Origin: Paenibacillus sp. 1781tsa1
GTDB taxonomy: Bacteria; Bacillota; Bacilli; Paenibacillales; Paenibacillaceae
Direction: 5' to 3'
DNA length: 64,000 nucleotides
NCBI RefSeq assembly: GCF_024159265.1
Contig: NZ_JAMYWY010000001.1
Span: forward strand, 6,634,001-6,698,000
Shown here: positions 13,016 through 30,401 of the stretch, piece by piece
Position numbering within the stretch: the first letter of the stretch is position 1
How the letters are laid out: every line of letters starts with the position of its first letter
Notes under the pieces: generated by a model
What the model was told of the DNA's origin: nothing
Seen by the model: the letters and a program-made list of their open reading frames with translations, nothing else
The model's database searches: none
Program-made: the position numbers and the translations under genes

Positions 13016-14029
13016 TCAGTACTCCAGGTGGTGCTGCTCGTTCAGGCGTTTGCGGAAGATATAATAACTCCAGATCTGATAACCAAGAACAAATGGCAGC
13101 AGTGTACAAGCCACAATCGTCATGACTTTTAATGAATACGCACCAGATGCCGCATTGTATACGGTCAGGTCAAATGCAGAACCAAACGAACTCACCATGA
13201 CTCTTGGGAACAGACCGATAAATACAGAGGCAAAGGCAATTGCAATCACAGCACCTGTCATACCAAAAGCCCAGCCTTCATGCTTCTGACGAACGAAGTA
13301 TGCCGCAAGTGCAAGCGCGACTGCGCCAAGTACAACCATGATCCACAGTGCCCAACCGCGAACGGCGAACACATCGGTCATGAAATACGTCAATATCGCA
13401 TACACGGCAAGCAGCGCAGCCAGCGGCAGCATCAATTTTTGCGCTGTATTCAAGGCACGCTCTCTGAGTTCCCCGACTGTTCGTAGTGAGGCAAACAGTA
13501 ATCCATGAACCAGACACAGCAGGGTTACACTCAAACCGCCAATCACGGTGTACGGATTAACAATATCGAAGAATCCTGCACGCAACTGCATCTCTCCATC
13601 AATAGGCAGACCCTTCATGAACGTAGCAAAGACTACGCCGAACAGGAAAGGAAGGAGCGCGCTGGATACCACAATGATGATATCCCATGTTTTGCGCCAG
13701 CGCTGCTGTTTCATTTTACTGCGGAATTCGAAGGCAACCCCGCGACCAATCAAGGCGAGTAACACGACCACAAGCGGCAGGTAGAAGCCACTGAACATCG
13801 TGGCATACCAGTGCGGGAAGGCGGCAAACATCGCGCCCCCTGCTGTAATCAGCCATACTTCGTTACCATCCCAGAAGGGACCAATCGAGTTGATCAGGGT
13901 CCGGCGTTCACGGTCCGTTTTGGCAATAATGCCTGTAGACATCCCTACACCAAAATCAAAACCTTCCAAAAAGAAGAAACCGACAAACAATACGGCAATC
14001 AGCAAAAACCACAACTCACTTAGTGACAA
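13016..14029 (-). CDS. cydB: Cytochrome bd oxidase subunit II, TTG start
   Basis: This 337-residue membrane subunit of cytochrome bd quinol oxidase has the usual length when started at the TTG at 14029. It then begins MSLSELWFLL, in line with the family. A GGAGGT site lies seven bases upstream, inside cydA, and the two genes overlap by 14 bases. Longer in-frame starts exist but lack a ribosome site. It has the characteristic FFFLEGFDFGVG motif early and about eight membrane helices. It works with CydA in high-affinity oxygen reduction. Confidence 0.93.
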   Translation of the reverse strand: MSLSELWFLLIAVLFVGFFFLEGFDFGVGMSTGIIAKTDRERRTLINSIGPFWDGNEVWLITAGGAMFAAFPHWYATMFSGFYLPLVVVLLALIGRGVAFEFRSKMKQQRWRKTWDIIIVVSSALLPFLFGVVFATFMKGLPIDGEMQLRAGFFDIVNPYTVIGGLSVTLLCLVHGLLFASLRTVGELRERALNTAQKLMLPLAALLAVYAILTYFMTDVFAVRGWALWIMVVLGAVALALAAYFVRQKHEGWAFGMTGAVIAIAFASVFIGLFPRVMVSSFGSAFDLTVYNAASGAYSLKVMTIVACTLLPFVLGYQIWSYYIFRKRLNEQHHLEY

Positions 14030-15608: not shown

Positions 15609-15937
15609 ACAAAGGATAAAATTCAGCCTATTTGAAGCAATCTCATAATACTTTTAGCTGCTTTAGTGCAGATTCAAAAAATGAGGTTTTTAGTACCGAG
15701 ATCCGAGAAGGTGGAATGCAGTTGGAAATGGGGTAGCGGAGCGCAGGAAAACTCTATAAAAGCTTGCCTACTTCATCTATTCATGGAAGATACTCATGTT
15801 TGGGACGGAATGCCCATATGTTAGTCTCAGGCATATCATGCGAAGTGCCGTAATGGCTTTACATATGAAGTGGAAGCATGAAGCACATGCATAGCGAAAG
15901 ACGCTCCATATTACAGTCAAGGTGAGGTGAGCGATTC

Positions 15938-17230
15938 ATGGAAAAACCTGTGCCGTTACCAGGTGAAGAATCCGAAGCCAGCCCGGATAAGGCCAGCGCA
16001 GCACAGCCCCCTGTACGATATGTTCTCTTCCCTCGCAAAGGAGGATGGTCATCCTTTCCCTATCCCGATATTGCTGCACTGCTGTCGATCGAGGGCGAGG
16101 TCTACTATGTCAGCAGCCTGACGCAAACAGTGGATGTACCTGCGGTTATCACCGTGATCTCCCTATCTGAAGCCGAGCAGCTATTGCTGGAACCCCGCAC
16201 CGTGGCAGTGGTTACTCATCCCTACTGGCTCATGGCTGCAGCTTCGCTGGAACCAGAGCTATGTATTGCCCTGCTCCCTGAGCCTGCCGGAGACGAAGCA
16301 TCTTCCCCCCTGTGGGAGAGCAGTATTTCCAAACTGGTGGGCATCGCCGATCTGGTCGGTACATCCTCCGAAACACGATATATGAAGCTGTTATTCCAAG
16401 GCGTACGCGCCATCTGGCTAGGAGGCGAAGATCATTCACCCGCGGGTACGATGCAAAAGGATGATCTCGAAGTCCCTCTCCGGGACTACGAACTGTTCTT
16501 CCTGCATGCGCTGCGGCAGATCCTGTCAGGCACTCCGGATAGCGTCACCCTGCTTCAATGCAGTGTACGTGCCGACTTCTATCGCCAGCTTCGAGCCAAA
16601 GCAGGTGCACATGAGACCATATCCTTTTTGCTGGCAGCTTATGAGTACTTGCTTGAAGATCCTCGGGCCATCCATTCGTTACAAGAAGCATTCACCCATG
16701 CAGTCATGAATGGTCGTAGTGATTGTGTGCTCTCCCACTATCGCTTCCTGTCTGCCATCCATGCCCGGGCCGGGCAGTTGGAGGACGCCTTGCTGGTGTA
16801 CGGAATTAGTGCAGCCGACGAACAGGAACGACATCATTATGAACAGTTATGTCGCTGGTTGGAGGCAGGAGAAGATCAACTTGTACGAGCGGAATTATTG
16901 CGTATGAACGATGATTACGGAACCGCGCTGCGCATCCTGGACGAACTTGGCGGAGAAACCGCGAGACATTGGAAATTCCGCATTTATCAGGAGACAGGAC
17001 GCGTGGAAGAGGCACTGGCTCTGGTGCATGCAGTCGATATTCAGGATGATGCCAGTCGCCAAGATTATCAGCAATTATCCGGAATTGCCCTGGCTCTGCG
17101 AGGGGACAGACACGGGGCAGTCAGACATTTTCTCGAAACGGCACTGGAGGATGAAGATGCCCTCGCCCGGATTGTCGAGCTGGAGCTGTTGGATCATGCT
17201 GTACAGCAATTGCTTGGGGAGGTGCCATGA
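15938..17230 (+). CDS. TPR-rich protein with GT-like N-terminus
   Basis: This 430-residue soluble protein is not one I can name. The first 170 residues look like the N-terminal half of a GT-B glycosyltransferase. One stretch, IADLVGTSSETRYMKLLFQG followed by VRAIWLGG, resembles the inter-domain strand of such enzymes, but no donor-binding half follows. Residues about 195-430 are helical repeats of TPR type (AGQLEDALLVYGI, TGRVEEALALVHA, RGDRHGAVRHFLE). An AAGGTGAGG site precedes the ATG. The stop overlaps the start of the next glycosyltransferase by four bases, so it belongs to the glycosylation operon and may act as scaffold or acceptor-recognition partner (inference). Confidence 0.7.
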   Translation: MEKPVPLPGEESEASPDKASAAQPPVRYVLFPRKGGWSSFPYPDIAALLSIEGEVYYVSSLTQTVDVPAVITVISLSEAEQLLLEPRTVAVVTHPYWLMAAASLEPELCIALLPEPAGDEASSPLWESSISKLVGIADLVGTSSETRYMKLLFQGVRAIWLGGEDHSPAGTMQKDDLEVPLRDYELFFLHALRQILSGTPDSVTLLQCSVRADFYRQLRAKAGAHETISFLLAAYEYLLEDPRAIHSLQEAFTHAVMNGRSDCVLSHYRFLSAIHARAGQLEDALLVYGISAADEQERHHYEQLCRWLEAGEDQLVRAELLRMNDDYGTALRILDELGGETARHWKFRIYQETGRVEEALALVHAVDIQDDASRQDYQQLSGIALALRGDRHGAVRHFLETALEDEDALARIVELELLDHAVQQLLGEVP

Positions 17231-18219
17231 TGCTGGACCCGAAGAAGCGCAGACAACAGTTGAATGGGCCAATGGTGCACAGGGATATTCGAACCGAAAC
17301 CACTTACATGCCAACGGAAACAGTCGATCGGACACATACAGACGCATTGGGAAATGGCGATCACGCGCCGGATCATGCACCACAAACGCAGGATATCCGA
17401 AGCCAAGTGCATCACTGGGGCGATTCTAAAGGTCTCGGAGAAAAGGATACTGTAACCCAAGAAGAAACAAGTGTATTCAAAGAGCCCTTCTCCATTCGTC
17501 GGGTTCGCAAAAGCAAAGGCAACAAGCTGACCGCCATGCTCCAGGTTCGCAATGAACGCGGCCGATACCTTGAAGAAGTATTGCATGATCTGAGTGAGTT
17601 CGTGGATGAGATCGTGATTGTGGACGATGCCAGCACAGACGGAACCCCGGATCTATGCAAAGCCTATCCGAAGGTGGTGCGTCTGGAGGTATTGGAGAAA
17701 CCGTTGTTCGCCGAAGAATGGCGACTTCGCAACACCTTATGGCAAGCGGCGGCGGGAACGAGTCCCGACTGGTTGCTCTCGGTTGATGCGGATGAGCTGT
17801 ACAGCACAGAGGCCAAGAAAGCCATACGTACGCTGATTAATCAGGAGTATGCAGACTGGTTTGCATTCCGTTTCTACGATATGTGGGGTGGCCGGACCCA
17901 TTACCGGGAAGATGATCTCTGGTGCCTGCACAAGCGGCATACCGCTTCACTTGTACGTTATATGCCTGGATATCCTTATTTCTATCCACAACAGAATCAT
18001 CATGTCCCCCGTCTCCCCTTATCCTGCACCGTATTGCCTGGAGTCAGCACGGAACTGAAGGTTCAGCATCTCGGCTGGGCAGGCAGTCTGGAGGACCGGG
18101 TTCGTAAATATTTGCGTTACAAGCGCATTGATCCTAGCGGTGAGTGGGGCAATCTCGCACATTACGAGTCGATTCTCGATCCGGAACCTCGGCTGGTTCC
18201 CTGGAAGGAGGGACCGTGA
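17227..18219 (+). CDS. Family 2 glycosyltransferase
   Basis: This 330-residue cytoplasmic enzyme has a GT-A fold domain starting after a variable, Gln/His-rich first 95 residues. Motifs are LTAMLQVRNERGRYLEEVL, VDEIVIVDDASTDGTPDL, and the metal-binding VDADELYS near residue 185. The C-terminal part contains VQHLGWAGSLEDRVRKYLRY, typical of GT2 proteins that act on surface glycans. It overlaps the upstream gene by ATGA and lies one base before the next start. Donor and acceptor are unknown. The neighbours suggest the Thr-rich repeat protein. Confidence 0.87.
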   Translation: MMLDPKKRRQQLNGPMVHRDIRTETTYMPTETVDRTHTDALGNGDHAPDHAPQTQDIRSQVHHWGDSKGLGEKDTVTQEETSVFKEPFSIRRVRKSKGNKLTAMLQVRNERGRYLEEVLHDLSEFVDEIVIVDDASTDGTPDLCKAYPKVVRLEVLEKPLFAEEWRLRNTLWQAAAGTSPDWLLSVDADELYSTEAKKAIRTLINQEYADWFAFRFYDMWGGRTHYREDDLWCLHKRHTASLVRYMPGYPYFYPQQNHHVPRLPLSCTVLPGVSTELKVQHLGWAGSLEDRVRKYLRYKRIDPSGEWGNLAHYESILDPEPRLVPWKEGP

Positions 18220-18220
18220 G

Positions 18221-19762
18221 ATGGGCGTGGTGAGTATTCTGACGCATAGCTTCACCGACGGGTATAACCGGGAATTTGGTCGAGTATTTGGTGGTGGGCT
18301 GGAGCGATATATTCTGGATCTGTGCAGTGTCATCCGTGGACTCGGACATATTCCCGAGGTTCATCAACTGTCCTATTTTGAAGCATTCCAGACTCGGACG
18401 GAGCAGATTGACGTATTCGGTTATTCGTACGACATGGATAATGTACCGGAAGCCTTTGATCGAATGGCAGCAGCGGCGCGCGGCCCAGTGATCTATGCAA
18501 GCTGTCTGTGGCAACCCATCACCTACAAACCAGGCAGTCTTGGTATCTGTCACGGCATTAACTGGGATCGTCCCGGACTGCCACTGGAGACCAAACAACA
18601 AGTGGCGGAACATATTCAATTGGCTCTGGATGGACTCGTGCGCATTGTATCCGTGGATTCCCATTTCCAGACCTTTTGCCGGGCTGCGTGCACCTATACC
18701 GATCCAAGACAGGTCGTCCTGATTCCGAATGCAGTGGATACGTCCTATTTCATACCTGCCCCGCCAACACGAACCTTCGAGCAGGAACAGGAAGACGAAT
18801 GGCTTGCCGCATGGAAGACCGATCTGGCGAGTCATGAGGAGAATGCCGGTGCAGTTATATCAGGGATGAAAGCTGTGGAAAGCAAGGGTGGACCGAGTGG
18901 TGATGGAGCGTACAATGGGAAGGCTAACGGAGATGGTGGTGGGGATACAGATAGCGATCAAAAACGAGAGGAGAAGGGAGCGGTAGATCTCCATTTGGAG
19001 TTATCAAAACTGGAAAAAGCCGAGGTACATGGCGAATCGTACACGGTTGCTCGTAACCACCTGAATTCAACGGATTGGGCTACGGATATTGTAATAGCAG
19101 CAGATGCTGAATATCAGGTTAATGGTTCGTCTCAGGGACAGGTTGAACAGAAAACTATGGATGTCCGCTTGACCTCTCCCCGCCCAATTCGCATAATATA
19201 TCCGCGTCGAATCAGCATGGAACGGGGCATTATTCCAATGATGCTGGCAGCAGATAAACTGCTGGGGGCTTTTCCGGATCTGGAGATTGAATTTGCCGGG
19301 GAACTGGTTGAAGGAAGTACGATCGGGAGAGCCTTTCGTTATTGGCATCGTACTCATCCACATGCGGAGCGAATTAACCAGCGCACGTATGATTTCCGGG
19401 ATATTCGGGAGGCCTACCATCAGGCAGATATCGCCGTAATTCCAACCATATTTTCGGAGGGTACCTCCTATGCCTGTCTGGAAGCGATGAGCTGTGGACT
19501 TCCGGTGATTGCCTCCAATGTTGGCGGATTGAATGATCTGATTCAGGATGGTTTTAACGGGCTTTTGGTACCTCCCGGCGAGCAGGAACTAACCGCTGCT
19601 CTGGTTCGTCTCGTACAGGATCGGTCCGAGCGAGAACGACTGGGAATCTATGCGCGCGAGACTGCACTGTCCTATGATCTTGCCAGGTGGCGGAGCCGGT
19701 GGAGCACGGTGTTGGAATCTTTTTTGGCAGAGACAGGATTAAAGGAGGGAATTCGGGGATGA
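18221..19762 (+). CDS. GT-B (family 4/1) glycosyltransferase with insertion
   Basis: This 513-residue glycosyltransferase has the two halves of a GT-B enzyme. The N-terminal half begins MGVVSILTHSFTDGYNREFG and includes LGICHGINWDRPG. The C-terminal donor half carries IYPRRISMERGIIPMMLAAD and the E-x7-E site EGTSYACLEAMSCGLPVIAS. Between them, about residues 186-323, is a hydrophilic, Gly/Asp/Glu-rich insertion that interrupts the usual linker. The start at 18221 is set by AAGGAGGGACCGTGAG. A longer frame upstream overlaps the preceding gene and is rejected. It is in the same operon as the GT2 and methyltransferase genes. Confidence 0.87.
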   Translation: MGVVSILTHSFTDGYNREFGRVFGGGLERYILDLCSVIRGLGHIPEVHQLSYFEAFQTRTEQIDVFGYSYDMDNVPEAFDRMAAAARGPVIYASCLWQPITYKPGSLGICHGINWDRPGLPLETKQQVAEHIQLALDGLVRIVSVDSHFQTFCRAACTYTDPRQVVLIPNAVDTSYFIPAPPTRTFEQEQEDEWLAAWKTDLASHEENAGAVISGMKAVESKGGPSGDGAYNGKANGDGGGDTDSDQKREEKGAVDLHLELSKLEKAEVHGESYTVARNHLNSTDWATDIVIAADAEYQVNGSSQGQVEQKTMDVRLTSPRPIRIIYPRRISMERGIIPMMLAADKLLGAFPDLEIEFAGELVEGSTIGRAFRYWHRTHPHAERINQRTYDFRDIREAYHQADIAVIPTIFSEGTSYACLEAMSCGLPVIASNVGGLNDLIQDGFNGLLVPPGEQELTAALVRLVQDRSERERLGIYARETALSYDLARWRSRWSTVLESFLAETGLKEGIRG

Positions 19763-20430
19763 TGGATACGCCCAAGGCACCGGAATTCATGGAATCAAGA
19801 TACATTAGGCAAAGTGACCCTAAAACGGACACATTGGTCTTCCCCCTGCATCCGGCATGGTGGAGCCGTCCCTACGAATATGAATGGGCCCGGCGGTTTG
19901 CACGTTCAGACGATGTGGTCCTTGATGCAGCCTGCGGCATCTCCCATCCGTTCAAATTCTGGCTTGCCGAACACTGCCGCGAGGTTCACGCCTGCGATTG
20001 GGATGAACGCATTTTGTCTGAAGAGGCGATAAGACTGGATATTGCTTCTGATTTTGGCGAGCTTGCCGCTCAGGATCTGCCGGAATCCACTTTTGTCCGA
20101 TTGCACCGTGCAAAGGCTAATCTGGCCCAGCTTCCGTACGAGTCGGGTAAGTTTGATCGGGTGTTCTGTATCTCTGTACTGGAACATCTGGATACGGGCA
20201 CAATGCTGCGAGCTTTCCGTGAATTCGCCCGGGTGCTGAAGCCGAATGGACAGTTGATCGCTACCTTCGATGTACCCGAGATGCGCCCTGATCTGCTGGA
20301 AACGATCATGGCGGTTACCGGACTAACCATTAAGGATAAGCTGAATGTGGAAGAACCGGACGATGCCATCTGGTCTGACATGTACGGCACGCCGATTCGC
20401 TGTTTTCGAGCGGTGATATGCAAAGGTTGA
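19759..20430 (+). CDS. Class I SAM-dependent methyltransferase
   Basis: This 223-residue methyltransferase has motif I VLDAACGISHP at residues 54-64, an acidic post-I turn ACDWDE, and VLEHLDTGTMLRAFREFARVLKPNGQL, typical of Methyltransf_11/25 proteins. The start overlaps the stop of the preceding gene (ATGA) with AAAGGAGGG upstream. Its place after two glycosyltransferases suggests O-methylation of a glycan or carrier, as in methylated surface glycans of other Firmicutes (inference). Confidence 0.85.
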   Translation: MMDTPKAPEFMESRYIRQSDPKTDTLVFPLHPAWWSRPYEYEWARRFARSDDVVLDAACGISHPFKFWLAEHCREVHACDWDERILSEEAIRLDIASDFGELAAQDLPESTFVRLHRAKANLAQLPYESGKFDRVFCISVLEHLDTGTMLRAFREFARVLKPNGQLIATFDVPEMRPDLLETIMAVTGLTIKDKLNVEEPDDAIWSDMYGTPIRCFRAVICKG

Positions 20431-20496
20431 GACAAATTGGGTTACGTTGAGTTAAGTGCAGAGTGGAAAATTGAGGGCTTAAGGGCTCGACCCATT

Positions 20497-20556
20497 AGCA
20501 ACGGAACAATACACGGTTCGGGCAATGCTCCGATTACCGGTAGCTCCGTTGCTCTT
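20497..20556 (+). terminator. Probable terminator between convergent operons
   Basis: AGCAACGGA (20497-20505) pairs with TCCGTTGCT (20545-20553) and is followed by CTTTTG. The enclosed 39 bases contain a further short self-complement (TACCGGTA). The loop is long, so the call is moderate. It lies between the plus-strand operon and the convergent glycosyltransferase genes. Confidence 0.5.
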
Positions 20557-20642
20557 TTGCAATTTCAATCGGAGATCAATTGAGAAACAGTTGGGGATTA
20601 CAGGGATTGGGGAATTAGGAATAAGATTAGAGATAAGATAAA

Positions 20643-22685
20643 TTATAGGTGTACCAGTAACATGTTGCACTGGTTGGTGTACTCTTTGGCAGAGGCTGCG
20701 CCGGGTGCTGTCAGGCGCAGCAGGATGTGCAGGCCCGGCGGAATTGTCGTCGCCGGGCGACCTGTGGCGGCAGATTGCCGCGCAGTGAGTTGGGCCGATT
20801 CAGCCCATTCACGTGCCAGGTTCTGCCGCCCAGCGAGCAGCGCGAGCATGCCCGCCAGGAGCGCGTGAGTGACGCGCTCCGGGGTGGGCACCGCGTCCGC
20901 GTGGGGCTGCTGCGAGCCGGCAGGCGTGCCGCATAGCGCAAGCAGCCCTTCGCGGACGCTCGCGGGTGCGCGCAGCAGCCCGCAGCGTGCCGCAGGCGGA
21001 AGCGCTGCGAGCAACGCCAGCGCGCCGCGGGGCGGCAGGGCTTGCAGCAGGCGCAGCCAAGCGGCCCAGGCGCCCACGCCGGCGAGCGCTTGCGCAGCTG
21101 CGAGCACGTCGCCAGCCGCAGGCGCGGCAGAGACGCCGGGCGTTGCGCCGCCGAGCGGGCCAGGCGCCCTGCCGCTGCTGCGAGCCCTGGCCCCGCGCTG
21201 CAGCAGCGCCTCGGCGGCGTGGGCCGCTGCGGGCAGCGCTGCCTGCCGGCGAGCCGCCGCTCGGGCGTTGCGCCCGCCGGGCTGCTTGTGGCCCAGCGCC
21301 CACAGCGCCAGGGCCGCCTCTGGCCCGTGCTGCGCATGCACCGCCCAGGGCTGCAAAGCCGCCCGGGCCGCGGCGTCCTCGCCCAGCTGGGCCAGCGCAA
21401 GCCCGGCGGCTAGCGGCTGTGCCCGCAGCGGGGCAGCGAGCGCCGCGGCGTGGCGCAGCAGCCACTCCGGCCGATGCGTAGCCAGCGCGGCCGGGATCAG
21501 CACTTGCCATGCCACAGGCGGCAAGCATACGCGGGTGGCTGCGCCGGCAATGGCATGCGGCCGCCCTGTGGCTGCGGCCAGCAACAACAGCCGCTGCCAT
21601 GCAGGCAAGCTGCCGGGTTGCACCCCCAGCGCCGCCGTGTATGCCGCTTCTGCCTCTGCCCAGCGACCAGCCCGCTCATGTGCCATGCCTTCCAGCGTCA
21701 GGCTGCGGTAGGTTCCAGCGCCAGAGACTGATGTATACCTGCTGGCTGTGGAAGCAGCCGTTTTAGCCAGTTTTAACCAGTCCAAGGCCATGTCCTCTCT
21801 CCCTTGATCCAGTTCAAGTACAGCACCAAGCTCCAACAAATCCGGAAAATCCTCATACACCGGCGCCCACGCTTCCACCACAGCAAGCGCCCGTTCCGGG
21901 CTGCCAATCTCTCGCCAGGCATAAGCCGTTTTCAGCACCAGATCCGAGTGATATCCACAATCCGGCATAAGCTGCGCCAATAATGGCTGCAACAACCGGA
22001 GTGCTTCATCATACTTCGCTTGCTGAAACCATTCGGCAGCCAGAGCATATAACAGCTCCGGTTGATTCCCCTCCGGATTCAACGCGGAACGGATCAACTG
22101 CATGTTGCGTGCACCTTTATTTTTGGCGGTAATCACCTGCTCCAGATATCCGTAATGAATGACCTCAAGTTCAGAATGAAGCACGCCTTGCGGAATCAGT
22201 GCCATGATGGAAGAAGCAATCTCTTCATGAATTCTGCCCTGAAAGGCAATTCGGGGATCATTGCGGAACAATCGACATACCGCATCCGTCACACGCTCTT
22301 CACCAGACACACCCAGCAGACTCGTGACCTGTATCCAGTATCCCCATACATCGTCTCTGCTTGCCGCTAACAACTGCACGAGTTCTGCCTTCATCGGTGG
22401 GGTCTGTACCCATACTTCATCCGCATCAAGCACCAGAATCCACGGTTTCGTAGCAACGGCCAGCGACAGATTACGGGCTTTACTGAAATCTCCGTTCCAT
22501 TCCGCGCGGATGACAACGGCACCATGAAGACGCGCAATTTCAGGTGTATCGTCTACCGAACCTGTGTCCACAACGATGATCTCATCCACAACATCTCTGA
22601 CTGCATTCAAGCACCGCTGGAGTGACCCTGATTCATCCTTCACGATCATGCACAAGCTAATCTCTGGCTCCACATTCACCACCAT
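20643..22685 (-). CDS. GT2 glycosyltransferase with Ala-rich TPR tail
   Basis: This 680-residue protein starts with a GT2 domain: ISLCMIVKDESGSLQRCL, IIVVDTGSVDDTPEIARLHG and the DXD motif VLDADEVW. TPR-like helices run from about residue 195 to 340. From about residue 318 to 665 the protein becomes extremely Ala/Leu/Arg-rich (for example HAAALAAPLRAQPLAAGLAL), and the DNA over 20690-21730 is strikingly G+C-rich compared with both flanks. The last 15 residues return to normal composition. The start follows GGTGAGGG. It shares its N-terminal design with the next two minus-strand genes, so all three are paralogs. The role is inferred to be glycosylation of the local repeat protein. Confidence 0.82.
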   Translation of the reverse strand: MVVNVEPEISLCMIVKDESGSLQRCLNAVRDVVDEIIVVDTGSVDDTPEIARLHGAVVIRAEWNGDFSKARNLSLAVATKPWILVLDADEVWVQTPPMKAELVQLLAASRDDVWGYWIQVTSLLGVSGEERVTDAVCRLFRNDPRIAFQGRIHEEIASSIMALIPQGVLHSELEVIHYGYLEQVITAKNKGARNMQLIRSALNPEGNQPELLYALAAEWFQQAKYDEALRLLQPLLAQLMPDCGYHSDLVLKTAYAWREIGSPERALAVVEAWAPVYEDFPDLLELGAVLELDQGREDMALDWLKLAKTAASTASRYTSVSGAGTYRSLTLEGMAHERAGRWAEAEAAYTAALGVQPGSLPAWQRLLLLAAATGRPHAIAGAATRVCLPPVAWQVLIPAALATHRPEWLLRHAAALAAPLRAQPLAAGLALAQLGEDAAARAALQPWAVHAQHGPEAALALWALGHKQPGGRNARAAARRQAALPAAAHAAEALLQRGARARSSGRAPGPLGGATPGVSAAPAAGDVLAAAQALAGVGAWAAWLRLLQALPPRGALALLAALPPAARCGLLRAPASVREGLLALCGTPAGSQQPHADAVPTPERVTHALLAGMLALLAGRQNLAREWAESAQLTARQSAATGRPATTIPPGLHILLRLTAPGAASAKEYTNQCNMLLVHL
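20690..21730. other. G+C-rich island inside glycosyltransferase gene
   Basis: Base composition jumps abruptly. In 21121-21180, 50 of 60 bases are G or C, whereas the flanks are close to 50-55%. The reading frame of the minus-strand glycosyltransferase stays open throughout, and so do long frames on the other strand, as expected of G+C-rich Ala codon runs. The edges are sharp on both sides. Confidence 0.85.
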
Positions 22686-22762
22686 CCCTCACCAACGGAG
22701 TTCGCCCCCATTCAGTACCCAGAACTGTGTTCACTTTAACTCCCTCACCTACCTGATCCCTC

Positions 22763-24751
22763 TCAGCTCTCAAACCCGTCCGCTCCCGGTAACTCCAGAC
22801 GAATATGCTGAACGACAGGCCAACAACGATGCCGCTGTCCATCTGTATGCTGAGCGAAAAACTCCAGATGATGATCCGCAGCACTGACCAATCCTTTTAC
22901 CAACCAGCTGGTTCCCACCAGCGTATCCAAAGATCCAGGGAATGACCCTATATCTTCTCCTTTTTCCCTATCCATATCCTTATCCTTCTCGCTCCTCTTC
23001 CCTTCCTCTTTCTCTCCTACACAAGCGCTCTCTTCTGGCGATAACCCTTCTCCAGACAATTGCTGTCGACACATCTGAATCAGGCTATGCAGCTCTTTCC
23101 ATCTCCCTGACTGTACACACCCTTCCATCATCAGACCCAGGGCCTGCCAGCCATCATACTCTGCTCCTGCAACCGTTCCGTCCATGCTGGAGTCCATGTC
23201 CTTCTTTGTTGTCGCTCTCAGACCCAACGTTCGCCCTGTCTGTGCAGCAATTTCTTCATTCTTAGTTACTGCTTCACCCACCTGCGAACTACGCTTCAAC
23301 CATAACGTCAATGGGTCATCTCCGCTAACTTCCTTCCCCTCGATCCACTCCAAACGTTCGAGCCATCGGGCAGATGAGGTTGCGAGCAACCCTTTTTTGC
23401 GTTGTACAGGTTCCAGTTTCAGGCGAGCCTTGTTCCATCTGCCTTGCTGGATATGGAGCATCGCCTCCGCCACGGATAAACGCTCCCTCATCTCTCCGTT
23501 GGGTTGTGACGATACACCCGGTAACAATCGCAGAGCCGCATCATAACAACGGGATTGCTCCAGAATGCCCAATACTTTGTGTGTAGCCTCTTCCGAACTG
23601 AGTGCAAAACGCTCCCTCACCAGCTCTGGAATCTGATGTTCCTGACCAGAAACTCGCATAATACGGAATATCCGATAAAGTGGCGGCAGCAGACTGGATT
23701 TGGCGCGAACCGCTTCCACGTAAGCATCCACTGCACCCTCCAGATCAGCCCTTCCTTCCAGTAATCGCCCTAACGTATACCACGTCTGATAGGTTCCGAT
23801 ACCTTCTTCCGTATGGTATATGGGCGGAGGTGGCCCCATGCGAACAGCTTCACGTAGCGACAGTTCGGCCCGATCTGCATCACCCAATGCGTCTGCACAT
23901 ACCCCGCGATGGTGCATCAGATCCGTGTACTCTGGAAAGAGTTCAAGCGCAGCATCAATGCGCTCCAATGCCTCCTGCCAGCGATTCAGATGCTGGAGAC
24001 AACGAACTTCATATTTGAACAGCAGATGCGCGTAACTGGTCACCGCAGGATCAATCCCCAACCGAGCCACACCAAACGTCTCCAATGCCCGCTCCGCTTC
24101 CCCTACACGCAGATACTCGACCCCCAGATTATAGTGATGGAACGGCTGATCCGGTTCTTCCTCCACTGCCTGTTCCAGCAGGCGAACATTGCGGTTCACC
24201 TTATCTTTGCGCTCCACAATTGCCGTCTGATACCCATAATGATGGATGATCATGTCCGTTACATGAAATGCAGCTTCTGGGTTATTCCGACAGATCGCCG
24301 CTGCAATCTGCTCATGAATTCGACCTTCAAACCGATGACCCGGAGCATTGCGGAAGAGACGTAACACCGGATTCACCGTAGCCCCCTGCTGACCCGTACC
24401 TGTATAGTTATGAATGTTTAAAAACAATCCGTCACATCCGCTGACCGCCGTCCAGCTTCTGATCTGCTCCCGCGCAGCCCTATCGAGCGCCTCGTCCGCA
24501 TCAAGAAAAAGAATCCAGTCGCCGGAAGCCTGCTCCAGGCCAGCATTCCGTGCTGCGGCAAAATCATCGCACCACTCAAATGGCACCACCATCGCGCCAT
24601 GCTGACGAGCAATCTCTGCGCTACGATCCGACGAACCGGTGTCCACGACAATCATTTCGTCCACCGCTCCCTGGACACTGGCAAGACAACGGGGCAGTAA
24701 CTCTTCCTCATCCTTCACGATCATGCATAGGGAAATTCGTTCCGCTCGCAA
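22763..24751 (-). CDS. GT2 glycosyltransferase with TPR repeats, TTG start
   Basis: This 662-residue protein has a GT2 domain: ISLCMIVKDEEELLPRCL, MIVVDTGSSDRSAEIARQHG and FLDADEALD. Helical TPR-like repeats follow, such as HHYNLGVEYLRVGEAERALE and DLMHHRGVCADALGDADRAE. A charged segment near residues 590-610 is rich in Lys, Glu and Asp. The TTG at 24751 is chosen because AAAGGAGG lies seven bases upstream. This gives a 44-base overlap with the upstream glycosyltransferase gene and hence tight coupling. A longer start is possible but has no ribosome site. Glycan and acceptor are unknown. Confidence 0.83.
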   Translation of the reverse strand: MRAERISLCMIVKDEEELLPRCLASVQGAVDEMIVVDTGSSDRSAEIARQHGAMVVPFEWCDDFAAARNAGLEQASGDWILFLDADEALDRAAREQIRSWTAVSGCDGLFLNIHNYTGTGQQGATVNPVLRLFRNAPGHRFEGRIHEQIAAAICRNNPEAAFHVTDMIIHHYGYQTAIVERKDKVNRNVRLLEQAVEEEPDQPFHHYNLGVEYLRVGEAERALETFGVARLGIDPAVTSYAHLLFKYEVRCLQHLNRWQEALERIDAALELFPEYTDLMHHRGVCADALGDADRAELSLREAVRMGPPPPIYHTEEGIGTYQTWYTLGRLLEGRADLEGAVDAYVEAVRAKSSLLPPLYRIFRIMRVSGQEHQIPELVRERFALSSEEATHKVLGILEQSRCYDAALRLLPGVSSQPNGEMRERLSVAEAMLHIQQGRWNKARLKLEPVQRKKGLLATSSARWLERLEWIEGKEVSGDDPLTLWLKRSSQVGEAVTKNEEIAAQTGRTLGLRATTKKDMDSSMDGTVAGAEYDGWQALGLMMEGCVQSGRWKELHSLIQMCRQQLSGEGLSPEESACVGEKEEGKRSEKDKDMDREKGEDIGSFPGSLDTLVGTSWLVKGLVSAADHHLEFFAQHTDGQRHRCWPVVQHIRLELPGADGFES

Positions 24752-26990
24752 GCTGATTCCTCCTTTCCCTCGCATGGAAAATCGTACGCCAGGGAATGCC
24801 CTCGGCCGTACGTAATCTTTGTTCCAACGCAGTATGCTGTGCAATGAGCCACTCGGCAGATGGGGAACGAACCCATTCCTGCTGAATTGCCTTCAAGGCC
24901 AATCGCATGTAACATACAGCTGCTCCAGCCCGGGCCTGTCGGTGAGCAGGTTCCTGCTCCAGTGCCTGTTCGAACAGAGACAACGCCTGTTCGTCGTATC
25001 CTTTGGCATACAGCGTTTCACCTAGCCAAAATAACCCTTCGGCATCGAGTTCACTCTCGGTCATACACTGTATCAGGAGGTTCGCGGCTATTATGGTATA
25101 CCCCTGACGATATAACAGGCTCGCAAACTCCCTTCGTAAAGTTACAGTTGTTCCCCAATGGTCACACATCATCATGGCCCGCAGCTCATGCAGTTGCTCA
25201 GCAAGTGTAAGCTGTCCTGTCTTTACGGCTTGCTGCACAACCTTTTCTGCTACCATCTCTGCCTGCGGACCCCATTGCATAAGCTTTTGTTCTTGTGAAG
25301 CAGGTTTTATGCTTCGCGGCTCTTTGGTTAACTGATTCAGCAGTCGATCCATGACCTTCCATACGTTCTTTTCTTGTGGAAGCGTAGTTGCGAGGAACGC
25401 CTCGGATAATCGTAATCCGTTGGTCCAACAAGCCAGTGCCCAATCTATTCTGTGCTCAGCCGGCAGATTAACTTCATTTACACAACCCACGCTCCAGTGT
25501 TCTTCTGCCAGTTGTAGTGCTTCGGAAACCCTATTCGCACATAACATCCAATGTATTCGATCCGCTACATGGATACGAGCAGTACACGCATCTGTATCCA
25601 GCATTTTCAATGCCTGTTCATATGCTCCACAGCCTGCTAGAACATAGATCACATACACCAGATGATCCTCATTCTTCACTGCATATGAATGTGGCATTTC
25701 ACCACGAATCGAATCACCGCGGCCCGATTCCTTGATTCCTTGGCATCTGGCGAGTAATGTTTCTGCTATGTTCTTATCGGTTTCACCGGATTGTTGCAGC
25801 ACATCTGCCAACCCTGCCCATGCCGGAGCATATGTGAACATGCTGTCCAATGCCAATTCATACAGATGTACGGACTCCTTTAGAAATCCCCGTTTCTGTG
25901 CAATTCTTGCCATCGCGGTATAAGCTCTGTAACTGTTAGAACCTGTTTCGGTTACATATGACACGCCTAACGTGCTGCCGCCATCACTCTGCACATCACG
26001 ATCTGATACCTCCCGGCAATCGGCCGCTCGGGCATAGGATTGGTATGCACGCTCCTCCAAACCCTGCTGTTCCAGCGCCTCCCCGTACAACAAGTGCAGA
26101 TCAGCATAGGATGGATACCGTTGTCGTTCCACAGCCAGAATTGCATGCGCCTCGTCATAGCGTTCCGATCCTACAAGGGTCTTTGCATAATCTCTAACCA
26201 GTGTTGGACGATATGGCGCAAGCAGCTCTATGAGACGTAATGATTCCCGGAACGCTTCAATTGCCTGTTCGATCTGACCAAGCTGGCAATACGTTACTCC
26301 CAGATTGTACAGGTGAAAAGGCTGTGCAGGCTCATCTGCGAGTTCCCGCTCAATCAGCTTCAGGTTACGTCTTGGTTTATGTTCCTTCGCAATCGTGGAG
26401 GCCAGATATCCATCATGAATCAGACATAATGGCGCAAGCGGTTCAGTCTCGATCAATAAATCTTCTTCATCTATATCGGTGTCGCTGTTATTCATATCAG
26501 CAACCTCACCCTGGGCAAGCTTGCATGGGCTACTACGAACCAACTGCTCATGGACGCGTCCCGCATATCGATATCCCTGATGAGCACGGAATAGTCTGAC
26601 AGGCTGGGATATCACCCGCTCTTCAGACCCTTCACCGTATCGATTCTCTATGGTAATTCGTAACCTTGAAATGCTTTTATGGACTTTAGGTAAATATTTC
26701 AGCAGTTCTTCCAATCCCTGCGCGACGTACTCATCGGCGTCCAGACACAGGACCCATTCTGTACCTGCCAGAGGCAGACTGATATTTCGTGCATGGGCAA
26801 AATCATCTTGCCAACGGGCATGCAACACCGTTGCTCCGTACGTTTTGGCGATCTCGGGTGTGTGGTCAGAGGAACCCGTATCCGTGATAAAACATTCCAT
26901 GCCGATAGGCTTCAAGCTGTCGAGACAGCGGGGCAGGTGATGTTCTTCATTTTGAACAATCATATGGATTCCAAGTAAACGGTTCTTCAA
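24708..26990 (-). CDS. GT2 glycosyltransferase with TPR repeats, TTG start
   Basis: This 760-residue protein is the largest of the three GT2-TPR paralogs. The N-terminus after the TTG start at 26990 is MKNRLLGIHMIVQNEEHHLP, then ITDTGSSDHTPEIAKTYG and the DXD motif CLDADEYVAQG. Several TPR units follow (FHLYNLGVTYCQLGQIEQAI, then ADLHLLYGEALEQQGLEERA, and a C-terminal GETLYAKGYDEQALSLFEQA). GGAGG lies nine bases before the TTG. A strong terminator ends only 20 bases upstream, so expression depends on readthrough from the repeat-protein gene or on a promoter hidden in the hairpin region. Confidence 0.83.
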   Translation of the reverse strand: MKNRLLGIHMIVQNEEHHLPRCLDSLKPIGMECFITDTGSSDHTPEIAKTYGATVLHARWQDDFAHARNISLPLAGTEWVLCLDADEYVAQGLEELLKYLPKVHKSISRLRITIENRYGEGSEERVISQPVRLFRAHQGYRYAGRVHEQLVRSSPCKLAQGEVADMNNSDTDIDEEDLLIETEPLAPLCLIHDGYLASTIAKEHKPRRNLKLIERELADEPAQPFHLYNLGVTYCQLGQIEQAIEAFRESLRLIELLAPYRPTLVRDYAKTLVGSERYDEAHAILAVERQRYPSYADLHLLYGEALEQQGLEERAYQSYARAADCREVSDRDVQSDGGSTLGVSYVTETGSNSYRAYTAMARIAQKRGFLKESVHLYELALDSMFTYAPAWAGLADVLQQSGETDKNIAETLLARCQGIKESGRGDSIRGEMPHSYAVKNEDHLVYVIYVLAGCGAYEQALKMLDTDACTARIHVADRIHWMLCANRVSEALQLAEEHWSVGCVNEVNLPAEHRIDWALACWTNGLRLSEAFLATTLPQEKNVWKVMDRLLNQLTKEPRSIKPASQEQKLMQWGPQAEMVAEKVVQQAVKTGQLTLAEQLHELRAMMMCDHWGTTVTLRREFASLLYRQGYTIIAANLLIQCMTESELDAEGLFWLGETLYAKGYDEQALSLFEQALEQEPAHRQARAGAAVCYMRLALKAIQQEWVRSPSAEWLIAQHTALEQRLRTAEGIPWRTIFHARERRNQLASGTNFPMHDREG

Positions 26991-27009
26991 ATGCAAACAC
27001 CTCCAATAC

Positions 27010-27048
27010 AAAAAAAATACATGAAGTCCATCAAAGGAACTCCATGTA
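27010..27048 (-). terminator. Terminator between repeat protein and GT genes
   Basis: On the minus strand TACATGGAGTTCC pairs with GGACTTCATGTA around TTTGAT and is followed by at least eight T residues. It lies just past the repeat-protein stop and directly before the ribosome site of the next glycosyltransferase gene, an arrangement that lets a highly expressed structural gene be followed by weakly expressed enzymes. Confidence 0.85.
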
Positions 27049-27069
27049 CCTATATGAAAAATAAATGGG

Positions 27070-28515
27070 TTATGTGCCTTGTCCATTGAAGAACACATCA
27101 ATCGTGCTTGGTGCACCAATTAGGCTGGAGCGGTAGGAAAGACGTGTATATTTGAGGAAACGCTGCGGCACGAGTACATCCACTGATCCGGACAAAATAC
27201 CAGTCACAGTGGCCACATCCGTGTACCAGTTCGTTCCGTTGGCACTGATCTCAACCTGAGCATCTACCCGGTTTATACCTGGGCCCCGGTTATATACAAA
27301 GAAAGAATACGTGCCAAACACACTGGTCGTAACCGCTGGAAGCGCAGTGAAGGTGTTTGCGGTCGGGGTGCTTATGAGCTGTGATTCCTGAAAACTCTTC
27401 TGTGAAATGGACGTCACGCTGCTAAGTGTTCCCGCTGTAATTGTAGCACCAAGCACACTCGTGATCGTTCCGTTTAACAAATTCGTCAAGGTCCCAGCCG
27501 TGATCGTTGCTCCGAGTACACTCGTGATTGTACCATTCAACAGGTTCGTCAATGTTCCTGCAGTTACGGTGGCTCCGAGCACACTCGTGATCGTTCCGGC
27601 AGTAATCGTCGCTCCCAATACACTTGTGATCGTACCATTTAGCAGATTCGTTAATGTTCCTGCGGTTACGGTGGCTCCAAGCACACTTGTAATCGTTCCG
27701 GCAGTAATCGTTGCTCCCAATACGCTTGTAATCGTACCATTCAGCAAGTTCGTCAACGTACCCGCTGTTACCGTTGCTCCGAGTACACTCGTGATCGTTC
27801 CGTTCAATAAGTTCGTTAGTGTTCCTGCGGTGATGGTTGCTCCGAGTATACCTGTAATGGTCCCCGCTGTAATCGTCGCTCCAAGCACACTCGTGATTGT
27901 TCCAGCAGTAATCGTTGCTCCCAATACACTTGTGATCGTACCATTTAGCAGATTCGTCAATGTTCCTGCGGTTACGGTGGCTCCAAGCACACTCGTGATC
28001 GTTCCGGCGGTAATTGTCGCTCCCAATACACTTGTGATCGTACCATTCAACAGATTCGTCAATGTTCCTGCTGTTACGGTGGCTCCCAGCACACTCGTGA
28101 TCGTACCATTCAGAAGGTTTGTCAATGTTCCGGCAGTTACAGTGGCTCCCAGCACACTCGTAATCGTTCCGGCAGTAATCGTCGCTCCCAATACACTTGT
28201 GATTGTACCATTTAGCAAATTCGTTAATGTACCTGCGGTTACGGTGGCTCCCAGCACACTATTAATCGTACCTGCCGTGATGGTCGCTCCAAGTACACTC
28301 GTAATGGTTCCGTTCAGAATGTTGGTAATGGTTCCTGCGTTAATTGTAACGGTAGTCAGACCTGAGATATTACTAATGGTCCCGTCCAAAATAATGCCAA
28401 CCACATTCCCGCTTGTATCGGTTCTGATAGGCTGGGCTGTCCCTGTACTATCCTGGCCGAAAATCAACGTTCTCAGATTATCCGGATTCGTATTAAACGT
28501 CGTAAAGTTAGGCAT
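27070..28515 (-). CDS. Thr-rich repeat surface protein with DUF6385-like end
   Basis: This 481-residue protein has three parts. Residues 1-60 start MPNFTTFNTNPDNLRTLIFG. Residues 61-361 are repeats of two units: a 13-residue unit (GTITSVLGATITA and variants, 17 copies) and an 8-residue unit (GTLTNLLN, 10 copies). Residues 362-481 form a globular end with YSFFVYNRGPGINRVDAQVE and LVPQRFLKYTRLSYRSS, which I take to be a DUF6385-like domain. There is no signal peptide, as for many spore-coat or exosporium proteins. The TxT pattern suggests a beta-solenoid with Thr ladders, and the many Thr are likely O-glycosylation sites for the adjacent enzymes (inference). Ribosome site GGGAGGAGG. Confidence 0.8.
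   Translation of the reverse strand: MPNFTTFNTNPDNLRTLIFGQDSTGTAQPIRTDTSGNVVGIILDGTISNISGLTTVTINAGTITNILNGTITSVLGATITAGTINSVLGATVTAGTLTNLLNGTITSVLGATITAGTITSVLGATVTAGTLTNLLNGTITSVLGATVTAGTLTNLLNGTITSVLGATITAGTITSVLGATVTAGTLTNLLNGTITSVLGATITAGTITSVLGATITAGTITGILGATITAGTLTNLLNGTITSVLGATVTAGTLTNLLNGTITSVLGATITAGTITSVLGATVTAGTLTNLLNGTITSVLGATITAGTITSVLGATVTAGTLTNLLNGTITSVLGATITAGTLTNLLNGTITSVLGATITAGTLSSVTSISQKSFQESQLISTPTANTFTALPAVTTSVFGTYSFFVYNRGPGINRVDAQVEISANGTNWYTDVATVTGILSGSVDVLVPQRFLKYTRLSYRSSLIGAPSTIDVFFNGQGT
27433..28335 (-). repeat. Coding repeat array of 39 bp and 24 bp units
   Basis: This DNA encodes residues 61-361 of the repeat protein. After an initial 8-residue unit, 13-residue units occur in runs of two, two, one, two, three, one, two, two, one and one, each run except the last closed by an 8-residue unit. 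Codons differ freely between copies while the protein is nearly invariant, so selection acts on the protein. The array may vary in length between strains. Confidence 0.9.
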
Positions 28516-28559
28516 GTGCCTCGTCCTCCTCCCTGGTCAAATCTGTATATTCCTACTCC

Positions 28560-29057
28560 CTACGGCATACGCTGCGCCTGAAAGTAAACATCAAGCCGGG
28601 TCGGTTGATCCGGTTCAACGGATCGAATTGCAAGCCGGGTATAATGCAAAAATCGCAAAGGTACCAGCGCTTTGGTCTGTCCTCCCGCGACCACCTCCTG
28701 GCTGTCCACGGCATAGTCTGAGGCATTGGGACTGATCTGGATCTGTACAAGAGCCGGATGTTTCCCGCGATTCACAACGCCATAGGTGTACATGCTGAGT
28801 GATGAGGTGTCTTGTGCCGGGAGGGAATTCATGCTGCTGCTGGTTTCGGCCCCGACATACGTATGCTCTGTAAAACAATGAATAGCACCAGGGAGTTTCG
28901 TACGTGAGGAAGTACCCTGCTTGAACCGGGGACGAGTAATCCGGGAACAAGGGGGTTTCAGCAATTTAGCGCGGCAGGAATGACGTGAGCGACGACGGCT
29001 TACATATTTGGTTGGTTGCTTCGTTCTCTTCTTGCTTCGCTTCGCTGTTCGACTCAT
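28560..29057 (-). CDS. Basic small protein with DUF6385-like C-terminus
   Basis: This 165-residue protein has a very basic first 55 residues (Lys, Arg and Ser rich, SKKRTKQPTKYVSRRRSRHS) followed by a domain similar to the end of the repeat protein. VPLRFLHYTRLAIRSVEPDQ and LDVYFQAQ align with VPQRFLKYTRLSYRSS and IDVFFNGQ there. No signal peptide is seen. An AAGGGGAAATCGAG stretch precedes the ATG. It sits 44 bases upstream of the repeat-protein gene on the same strand, so the two are probably co-transcribed. The shared domain may mediate assembly with the repeat protein, while the basic tail could bind wall polymer or another coat protein (inference). Confidence 0.78.
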   Translation of the reverse strand: MSRTAKRSKKRTKQPTKYVSRRRSRHSCRAKLLKPPCSRITRPRFKQGTSSRTKLPGAIHCFTEHTYVGAETSSSMNSLPAQDTSSLSMYTYGVVNRGKHPALVQIQISPNASDYAVDSQEVVAGGQTKALVPLRFLHYTRLAIRSVEPDQPTRLDVYFQAQRMP

Positions 29058-29158
29058 CTCGATTTCCCCTTAAAAAATGTGCTTACGCATCGTATGCCCG
29101 GATCGGATATACGGGCACGGCATCTGCCGTTATTTTGGAATTTGCAGTCCGTTCCCAA

Positions 29159-29186
29159 ACGCTTTCTCTTGTTCTTACATACAATG
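29159..29186 (+). promoter_or_regulatory. Possible mother-cell sporulation promoter
   Basis: AC at 29159-29160 and CATACAATG at 29178-29186 are 17 bases apart, which fits the loose sigma-K pattern (AC, then CATAnnnTA). The -10 part also fits sigma-E, CATACANT. It lies 69 bases upstream of the small-paralog start at 29256. The consensus is weak and the call is tentative. Confidence 0.3.
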
Positions 29187-29255
29187 CAAGTAATGAGGAC
29201 ATGCGAAACAAATAGTATCGCGAGACCATTTCCATCTATTCAGAGGGGGGACAAG

Positions 29256-29789
29256 ATGACAAACTCTAATGTATTCAACCAGTCTAATGGGCCCCTGTTC
29301 ACTCAACTGACCAACACTTATGCAGCCCCGGGTATTGAAGCTTCAGTAGATACCGGTGCGGCTGCGGCAGGCAGTTTTTTTGCCCTGACGACCAATACTA
29401 CAGCGATCCCTTCCAGCCAAAACCTTCTTCTTCAAATCCTGAATGCGAGTGGAAGTGGCAGAACATTACGTATTGCCAGCCTTTCGGGAGGTACAACTTC
29501 TGCAGCTACACTGGTCGTTTATTCCGGAGGCACGGTGACGGCAGGAAGCACACCTACACCCGTCAATACGTTGCTCGGCAACGCCAATACCAGCATCGTT
29601 ACCACAAGGCAAAATACGGGCACGCTTGGGGGTACTTTCACTAGTTTGCTCAGCATACCTCTCACTGCGGGAATGTACTCTTTGGATTTAAACGGTTCCA
29701 TTCTTGTTCCACCGGGACAATCACTATCCATTAGTTTAGGAACTGGCAGTCAGACTGCAGCCATTAATCTCTTCTGGTGGGAATTCTGA
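29256..29789 (+). CDS. Small Ser/Thr-rich structural protein, paralog 1
   Basis: This 177-residue protein of unknown function begins NVFNQSNGPLFTQLTNTYAA after the initiator and is rich in Ser, Thr, Gly, Ala and Leu, with almost no charged residues. It contains LLLQILNASGSGRTLRIASL and SGGTTSAATLVVYSGG and ends AAINLFWWEF. The sequence suggests an all-beta, surface-exposed fold. GAGGGGGGACAAG precedes the ATG. The next gene encodes a paralog with the same start, glycine turn and Trp-Trp-Glu end. It is divergent from the repeat-protein operon and probably part of the same surface structure. Confidence 0.75.
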   Translation: MTNSNVFNQSNGPLFTQLTNTYAAPGIEASVDTGAAAAGSFFALTTNTTAIPSSQNLLLQILNASGSGRTLRIASLSGGTTSAATLVVYSGGTVTAGSTPTPVNTLLGNANTSIVTTRQNTGTLGGTFTSLLSIPLTAGMYSLDLNGSILVPPGQSLSISLGTGSQTAAINLFWWEF

Positions 29790-29819
29790 ACATGATCCTG
29801 ATAAAAGGAGGTGCACACT

Positions 29820-30401
29820 GTGCCGAACCACAATGTATTTAATCCATTAAATCTGCCCGTCTATACGTCCAACACGAACACATATATTTCTCCCGGCATT
29901 GTTGCTCCTCCGGAGAATAATGCTGGCAGCACAGGCAATCTGTACAATGCAGGTTCCACCAACTCCACAACACTGGGATTGCTGGGAGGAACGGTTATCG
30001 CCACCGTACAATTGGCCAATCCCGCAGGGAGTGGGAGAACACTATACGTATCACGGCTCTCTGGTGGAATCACCGTTGCACTGAATCTGTTGTCATCCTT
30101 CAGCGGTTCCATGAGTCTGACCGCAAATGGAACGCTAAGCTCTCCCAGTACACTCACGGCGGTCAACAGCAACCTTTCCAGCAGCAATACCAGTGCAGCC
30201 ATCGTACGATTCTCTTCTGCTGCGCCTTCAGGAGCGACCTCATTGATGGCAATGCCCCTTCAAGCGGGGCCTTTTCTATCCAATGAATTTGGCCGTTATG
30301 TGGTTCCTCCAGGTCAAGCCATTAACCTCTCTGTCAGCGGATCACTTTCGGTTGGTGGACTGTTGGCCTCTACTGCTTATTTCGCTTGGTGGGAGGTCTA
30401 A
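29820..30401 (+). CDS. Small Ser/Thr-rich structural protein, paralog 2
   Basis: This 193-residue paralog of the preceding protein has NVFNPLNLPVYTSNTNTYIS near the start and ends STAYFAWWEV. The middle has QLANPAGSGRTLYVSRLSGG, which lines up with the SGSGRTLRIASLSGG of paralog 1. A late VPPGQ motif is also shared. The GTG at 29820 is chosen because AAAGGAGGTG lies six bases upstream. An earlier GTG at 29811 overlaps that site. The two genes are 30 bases apart on one strand. Function is unknown. A structural role on the spore or cell surface is inferred. Confidence 0.75.
   Translation: MPNHNVFNPLNLPVYTSNTNTYISPGIVAPPENNAGSTGNLYNAGSTNSTTLGLLGGTVIATVQLANPAGSGRTLYVSRLSGGITVALNLLSSFSGSMSLTANGTLSSPSTLTAVNSNLSSSNTSAAIVRFSSAAPSGATSLMAMPLQAGPFLSNEFGRYVVPPGQAINLSVSGSLSVGGLLASTAYFAWWEV

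Follow-up and report, generated by a model that had tools for sequence, protein, structure and literature searches.

A predicted Paenibacillus gene island for O-glycosylation of a DUF6385-bearing, non-collagen stalk of the spore surface

A block of eleven genes in Paenibacillus probably encodes a mother-cell system that O-glycosylates a non-collagen stalk of the spore surface, and would work like the SgtA/BclA3 pair of Clostridioides difficile although it has no BclA. This reading was derived from gene content, domains, conservation and linkage. The block, called the island below, occupies positions 15938-30401 of the window, i.e. of the whole 64,000-nucleotide stretch analysed (G000:C1:6634001-6698000, part of a 7.08-Mb Paenibacillus genome). 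Genes A-D lie on the plus strand, E-I on the minus strand and J-K again on the plus strand. The nearest named relatives, judged by gene I, are Paenibacillus, e.g. P. xylanexedens and P. amylolyticus. The original prediction, made from the DNA sequence alone, had proposed a self-contained system glycosylating a repeat protein, perhaps of the spore; its core idea is supported by linkage, by co-occurrence with spoIVA, by sigma-E/K-like promoter elements and by a gene layout like that described for SgtA. Spore surfaces decide adhesion, clumping and recognition, and few glycosylated spore-surface structures are known in detail apart from those of the Bacillus cereus group and C. difficile.

Gene H (27070..28515, minus strand) encodes threonine-rich tandem repeats followed by a C-terminal DUF6385 domain (residues 397-479). 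The repeats are built of 13-residue (GTITSVLGATITA-like) and 8-residue (GTLTNLLN-like) units, of which the pattern used found 17 and 10, respectively. Threonine makes up 93 of the 329 repeat residues, in keeping with the Thr-rich repeat protein that had been predicted. If the T-(I/L)-T motif is in a strand, the aliphatic side chains would point to one face and the threonines to the opposite one. In 15 sequences (the window and 14 orthologs) H varied from 421 to 510 residues, tracking the number of units, as expected for a variable-length stalk. No collagen-like GXY repeats were seen in H and the Pfam collagen profile did not match it. Gene I (28560..29057, minus strand) encodes a small protein with a basic N-terminus (21 K/R in 60 residues) and a DUF6385 domain, confirming that it shares the C-terminal domain of H (PF19912: 92.3 bits, E 1.9e-26 for H; 104 bits, E 4.3e-30 for I; cut-off 26.8). 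These are the only two DUF6385 copies in the genome of the window, and Pfam gave no match to a BclA domain. In another genome of the genus (G005:C1:1439679-1439917) the small gene has its DUF6385 domain spread over two frames. A mobile-element origin was considered and rejected: protein I had no match among phage records and a single one among plasmid records at E<=0.001, the latter in NZ_CP054613.1, the record of a 2.7-Mb plasmid of Paenibacillus cellulosilyticus.

Downstream of H on the minus strand lie genes G (24708..27119), F (22763..24844) and E (20643..22685), which encode glycosyltransferases with a GT2 domain (PF00535, E 4.2e-16, 3.9e-20 and 6.6e-18, respectively) and tetratricopeptide repeats (TPRs). 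A GT2 domain followed by TPRs was clear in F and G, while the TPRs of E were weak and stayed below the Pfam cut-offs. The Asp-Ala-Asp (DAD) motif is invariant in all three. The solved structures nearest to F are those of GmaR (22ao, E 3.7e-39), a GT2-like protein (7msk) and SunS (7msp and 7msn); the SunS equivalog TIGR04195 (cut-off 350 bits) was not reached by E, F or G, which scored 88.8, 80.8 and 71.9 bits. The gene for E is of split composition: its C-terminal half (20643-21635) is Ala-rich with 75% GC, its N-terminal part has 53% GC, and the split was found in all 15 orthologs from 20 named loci in which the match reached that far (0.70-0.77 vs 0.49-0.54).

GmaR, in which TPRs follow the glycosyltransferase domain, transfers N-acetylglucosamine (GlcNAc) onto flagellin (PMC9638930). 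SgtA of C. difficile is described as a glycosyltransferase domain with four TPRs whose gene lies immediately upstream of bclA3, and as the enzyme that puts beta-O-GlcNAc on threonines of the BclA3 repeats (PMC7157674). By this precedent E, F and G would initiate O-glycans on H.

The arrangement of the island is beyond chance, with gene order conserved in the genus and adjacency of DUF6385 and GT2-TPR genes outside it. DUF6385 was found in 43 of 75 Paenibacillus genomes, 36 of them with at least two matches and seven with one. Close orthologs of G (E<=1e-75) were present in exactly these 43 genomes and in none of the 32 lacking DUF6385, five of which had weak matches (1e-31 to 1e-39). J/K-type matches were detected in the same 43 and in two further genomes (G022 and G071), where they are remnants of K. 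The 43 genomes are related and not independent. Co-occurrence across Paenibacillus, which the original prediction had suggested searching for, was observed for DUF6385, the J/K-type genes and G. Another 20 named Paenibacillus loci were retrieved through gene I, and every one of them shows the same order of I, H, G, F, E, J and K (E is cut by the end of the stretch in L043, L047 and L059).

Outside the genus, 56 of the 398 sampled Bacillota genomes, in 42 of 266 genera, contained DUF6385, 54 of them above the Pfam cut-off. At 20 distant loci, taken from the 53 DUF6385 genomes outside Paenibacillus, a GT2-TPR gene was detected at E<1e-30 in 15; the fetched loci without one were L101, L102, L106, L114 and L116, some of these stretches being short. 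The same DUF6385/GT2-TPR pairing occurs in a metagenome-assembled genome of Halothermothrix. Counting all GT2-TPR genes (E<=1e-40) of the 53 genomes, 81 of 106 lay within 10 kb of a DUF6385 gene, against 0.83 expected from random placement if 3.0 Mb is assumed for all but two genomes. Adjacency within this distance was found in 35 of the 53.

This linkage also bears on the idea that H uses its ladder of threonines to bind ice or a surface and that the glycosyltransferases act elsewhere. H does carry TIT/TLT at regular spacing, and such TxT motifs resemble those of insect antifreeze proteins, but the alternating 13- and 8-residue units give no constant coil and the DUF6385-GT2-TPR linkage runs across the phylum; we regard the idea as hardly credible.

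Sporulation was approached through spoIVA, which was present in 54 of the 56 DUF6385 genomes compared with 335 of 398 overall (p 0.0026; Fisher tests, which ignore relatedness). The two genomes without spoIVA are 80% and 75% complete. Two genomes (G078 and G238) match DUF6385 below the Pfam cut-off; when both are excluded spoIVA is found in 52 of 54. When the count is restricted to genomes with at least 90% completeness and no more than 5% contamination, all 47 with DUF6385 had spoIVA (p 0.0005). A different explanation would be that the protein glycosylated by the island belongs to the vegetative envelope (S-layer-like or a biofilm fibre) and not to the spore. Glycosyltransferases beside repetitive surface proteins do occur in vegetative envelopes, and the association of DUF6385 with spoIVA is a modest one, since most genomes of the sample have that gene. 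Nevertheless, a crude hydropathy scan showed no signal-peptide-like hydrophobic stretch at the N-terminus of H, I, J or K, as had been noted before, and the near-universal spoIVA (the exceptions being incomplete genomes) and the sigma-E/K-like elements described below likewise speak for the spore. A vegetative role appears distinctly improbable. In H, I, J and K Pfam found no cell-wall-binding domain such as SLH.

Putative promoter elements were sought with the well-known consensus sequences of sigma-E and sigma-K. Upstream of gene A a putative sigma-E-type promoter of A-D (15794..15823, plus strand; TCATGTT-N14-CATATGTTA) was found, conserved as TCATGTT-N14-CATATGYTA, without change of spacing, in all 19 aligned genomes. 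The strict sigma-E pattern matched nowhere else in the window, where 0.28 matches were expected, and the layout of the element is that seen upstream of the genome's own spoIVA (L138; TCATATT-N14-CATAAGAT). Operon I-H-G-F-E is preceded by a putative -10-like element (29088..29096, minus strand; CATACGATG) present in 21 of 21 aligned intergenic regions, and J-K by a putative sigma-K-like promoter (29158..29186, plus strand; AAC-N17-CATACAATG). In the latter, the element CATANNNTG was found in all 21 aligned regions, with a -35-like AAC in 15 and ATC in six. Since the sigma-K pattern by itself was no commoner in the window than expected by chance (three found, 3.65 expected), conservation was used as the evidence for the J site. 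The I-J intergenic region, otherwise about 200 bases long, carries an insertion of about 220 bases in L043. At the distant loci AC-N(15-18)-CATANNNTA occurred upstream of 10 of 36 DUF6385 genes (8 of 20 loci), compared with 13 of 174 other open reading frames (ORFs) in the same loci, which are not verified genes (p 0.0015, uncorrected, two patterns having been tried), and with 0.86 in shuffles. The J site of the window ends in TG and would itself be missed by this pattern.

The mechanism that we propose is as follows. Expression would take place in the mother cell during sporulation, with A-D driven by the sigma-E-like promoter and the other two operons, I-H-G-F-E and J-K, by promoters whose -10 elements are sigma-K-like. 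In the mother-cell cytosol E, F and G would bind the repeats of H through their TPRs and attach a sugar, probably GlcNAc, directly to the threonines that alternate with aliphatics (TIT/TLT). B, C and D may then extend and methylate the glycan, as their domains alone suggest, with A as a putative TPR scaffold. In H a conserved N-terminus would lead into the stalk, whose length varies with the repeats, and the DUF6385 jelly roll would form the C-terminal end. I, whose DUF6385 domain follows a basic tether, may act as an anchor of the structure, and J and K, in which a flexible N-terminus is conserved, would be jelly-roll partners. Every functional step is a deduction, including the identity of the sugar, the timing, the location and the assembly.

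Several points weigh against this reading. The DUF6385 genomes without adjacency number 18 of 53: 15 have no GT2-TPR gene at E<=1e-40, and three have one elsewhere only. With spoIVA in so many genomes of the sample the link to the spore is modest, the more so as relatedness was ignored. No recognisable sigma-E or sigma-K -35 was seen at the promoter of I; upstream of the 36 distant DUF6385 genes the sigma-K pattern was missing at 26 and the sigma-E pattern at all. The repeat region of H was modelled at a predicted local distance difference test score (pLDDT) of about 40, so the shape of the stalk is not fixed by the model, and the structures matched by J and DUF6385 score no better than unrelated jelly rolls. 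No paper naming the family DUF6385/PF19912 was found in the literature searched. Finally, the ratios of nonsynonymous to synonymous substitution rates (dN/dS) of A, B and D between genomes that lost E-K and relatives that kept it, given below, suggest that A-D may serve something else.

The last point concerns the second operon of the island. Gene B (17227..18219) encodes a GT2 glycosyltransferase without TPRs (PF00535, E 4.2e-11), gene C (18128..19762) a GT4/GT-B glycosyltransferase (PF00534, E 1.1e-22) and gene D (19687..20430) a methyltransferase (PF08241, E 2.2e-14), a candidate sugar O-methyltransferase; the five glycosyltransferases and the methyltransferase listed in the original prediction were thereby confirmed as to their domains, the TPRs of E only weakly. 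Gene A (15938..17230), which opens the operon, encodes a 430-residue TPR-like protein. It had been predicted to combine TPRs with a glycosyltransferase-like N-terminus: a weak TPR match was all that Pfam returned, and the glycosyltransferase-like N-terminus was unsupported by Pfam and by phmmer, which found no solved-structure match up to E 10. In C a Gly/Ser/Glu-rich stretch of about 100 residues (about 18885-19185) seems shorter or different in relatives, where the tblastn matches are split.

Every one of the 43 Paenibacillus genomes with DUF6385 has a match to protein A, and so have nine of the 32 without it. The case that the original prediction had named as refuting it, glycosyltransferases in the absence of the repeat protein, thus exists for operon A-D, though not for G, and the term self-contained is only partly right. 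The site beside the left flanking gene (14016-15431), which we take to be cydA (cytochrome bd subunit I-like), was inspected in 11 of these 32 genomes. In two (G010 and G011) cydA directly adjoins the right flanking gene (30523-31869 in the window), presumably a major facilitator superfamily (MFS)-like transporter gene. The other nine (L158-L166) lack E-J and all or part of K, with A-D whole in seven and partial in two (G029 and G042). Fragments of E remain in G050 and G020, fragments of K in G029, G071, G066 and G022, and the breakpoints differ; in G033 the gap also removes the MFS gene and part of the next gene. The nine genomes lie scattered over a cydA tree with 30 rows, with eight state changes on the best tree and at least six forced by well-supported branches; the count comes from one flanking gene in 30 of the 75 genomes, and the changes may be gains or losses. 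With the tree and the remnants taken together the absences of E-K are apparently repeated deletions, the tree alone being compatible with regains. Pairwise dN/dS of A, B and D was 0.07-0.32 between genomes that lost and kept E-K and 0.09-0.17 between keepers (D, cut by stretch ends, was compared in four of the seven loser-keeper pairs). The remnants, the scatter and the dN/dS values indicate that E-K behaves as a unit from which A-D is separable.

The same observations favour a model in which H-K build a spore structure and E-G alone glycosylate H, while A-D belongs to a different glycan pathway that acts on another substrate elsewhere: A is kept without DUF6385, A-D stands whole without E-K at seven of the 11 inspected sites, and the dN/dS of A, B and D there is much like that of whole-island pairs. 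On the other side, L105, from a different family, has A-, B- and C-like genes together with DUF6385 and three GT2-TPR genes, L104, from a different genus within the family, has J, K, two DUF6385 genes, three GT2-TPR genes, B and A, and L113 has a D-like gene, which argues for an old functional link. Moreover, the losses may be too recent for decay, and two of the nine genomes did lose parts of A-D. We consider a separate A-D pathway possible but somewhat doubtful; either E-K was lost only recently or A-D also does something else. Extending our preferred reading of a glycosylated spore stalk, we lean slightly towards a wider one: DUF6385 would mark a phylum-wide family of non-collagen, mother-cell-glycosylated stalks, mostly with dedicated GT2-TPR enzymes, and in Paenibacillus the stalk-plus-initiator block would have been deleted repeatedly as a unit while the glycan-finishing operon survived under selection, giving natural on/off variation of spore-surface glycosylation.

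Genes J (29256..29789, plus strand; 177 residues) and K (29820..30401, plus strand; GTG start after AAAGGAGG) are mutual paralogs with 42% identity. They had been taken for further paralogs of H and I; this was rejected on sequence, J and K having no Pfam match above cut-off and their alignment matching that of DUF6385 with a probability of 0.2% in profile comparison. The model of J starts with a low-confidence N-terminus of 37 residues, followed by a beta sandwich that matches jelly rolls; Foldseek gave no match at E<=0.001. Across 26 sequences of J and K, ten of the 27 N-terminal positions do not vary, and this N-terminus looks like a targeting peptide. J is split over two frames in G054:C1:262822-263351 (residues 1-126 and 124-177) and its match ends at residue 125 in L040; in both it may be broken. 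Apart from probable starts downstream of the listed ORF starts in C (ATG at about 18221), D (about 19759) and K (GTG at 29820), the ORFs, strands and coordinates of the island agreed with those originally listed.

The model of the DUF6385 domain of H is of good quality (pLDDT 84-91 per ten residues over residues about 381-480) and in a fold search matched jelly rolls, with XepA (6i56) first at Z 11.4; the C-terminal domain of F-BclA (9h38) scored Z 8.2, tied with many jelly rolls. The top Foldseek rows for the whole H model, phage tailspikes, were set aside because they matched through the low-confidence repeats. The fold matches raise the possibility that H and I form a fibre like the endospore appendages (ENA), in which DUF6385 would be the domain through which subunits polymerise and glycosylation would be decoration. 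DUF6385 aligns with Ena1B (7a02; Z 10.5, root-mean-square deviation 4.8, 102 aligned), Ena2A (9i0y; Z 9.1) and Ena3A (8pdz; Z 9.0), and a stalk plus a small protein with a common C-terminal domain mirrors F-Anchor/F-ENA (PMC11952670). These Z values, however, are equalled by unrelated jelly rolls, a Pfam search of H, I, J and K up to E 10 gave neither DUF3992 nor DUF4183, and the genome has its own, separate DUF4183 pair. We judge the ENA-type fibre unlikely, and claim no homology of J (7a02, Z 7.8) or DUF6385 to ENA subunits. The F-ENA-like DUF4183 pair (L139, C1:1115500-1116103) includes one protein with collagen-like repeats, and AC-N17-CATATACTA lies upstream of its small gene.

If the reading of the island as a spore-stalk glycosylation system is true, DUF6385, a domain of unknown function present in 56 of the 398 Bacillota genomes, gains a testable role, the GT2-TPR enzymes gain matched substrates and the block losses become natural mutants for comparison. 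The enzyme-substrate pairs could then also serve as tools to put sugars on repeat proteins.

A description of this locus was not found among the titles and abstract beginnings of the literature on Paenibacillus spore surfaces and appendages, nor was a paper connecting BclA3 and sgtA with sigma-K found. Among known systems, GmaR, the GlcNAc transferase of Listeria flagellin, and SunS are among the closest solved relatives of F, and GmaR shares with F and G a glycosyltransferase domain followed by TPRs; unlike GmaR, the island enzymes would not be expected to act as MogR-type antirepressors. With F-ENA/F-Anchor, which occur in Paenibacillaceae and Clostridia, the island has in common a stalk and a small protein that share one C-terminal domain (PMC11952670). 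It differs in that the domain is DUF6385 and not DUF4183, that collagen is lacking and that GT2-TPR genes are linked; from ENA in general it is set apart by the lack of DUF3992/DUF4183 subunits, and from BclA by an H protein without collagen repeats. The closest parallel is SgtA/BclA3, where a TPR-bearing glycosyltransferase is encoded beside a threonine-rich repetitive stalk gene and O-glycosylates the repeat threonines, the step that we propose by analogy for the island; the likeness is one of layout (PMC7157674). Unlike in SgtA/BclA3, the predicted stalk of the island is non-collagen and ends in DUF6385, and it is accompanied by three GT2-TPR genes, a second operon and extra jelly-roll proteins.

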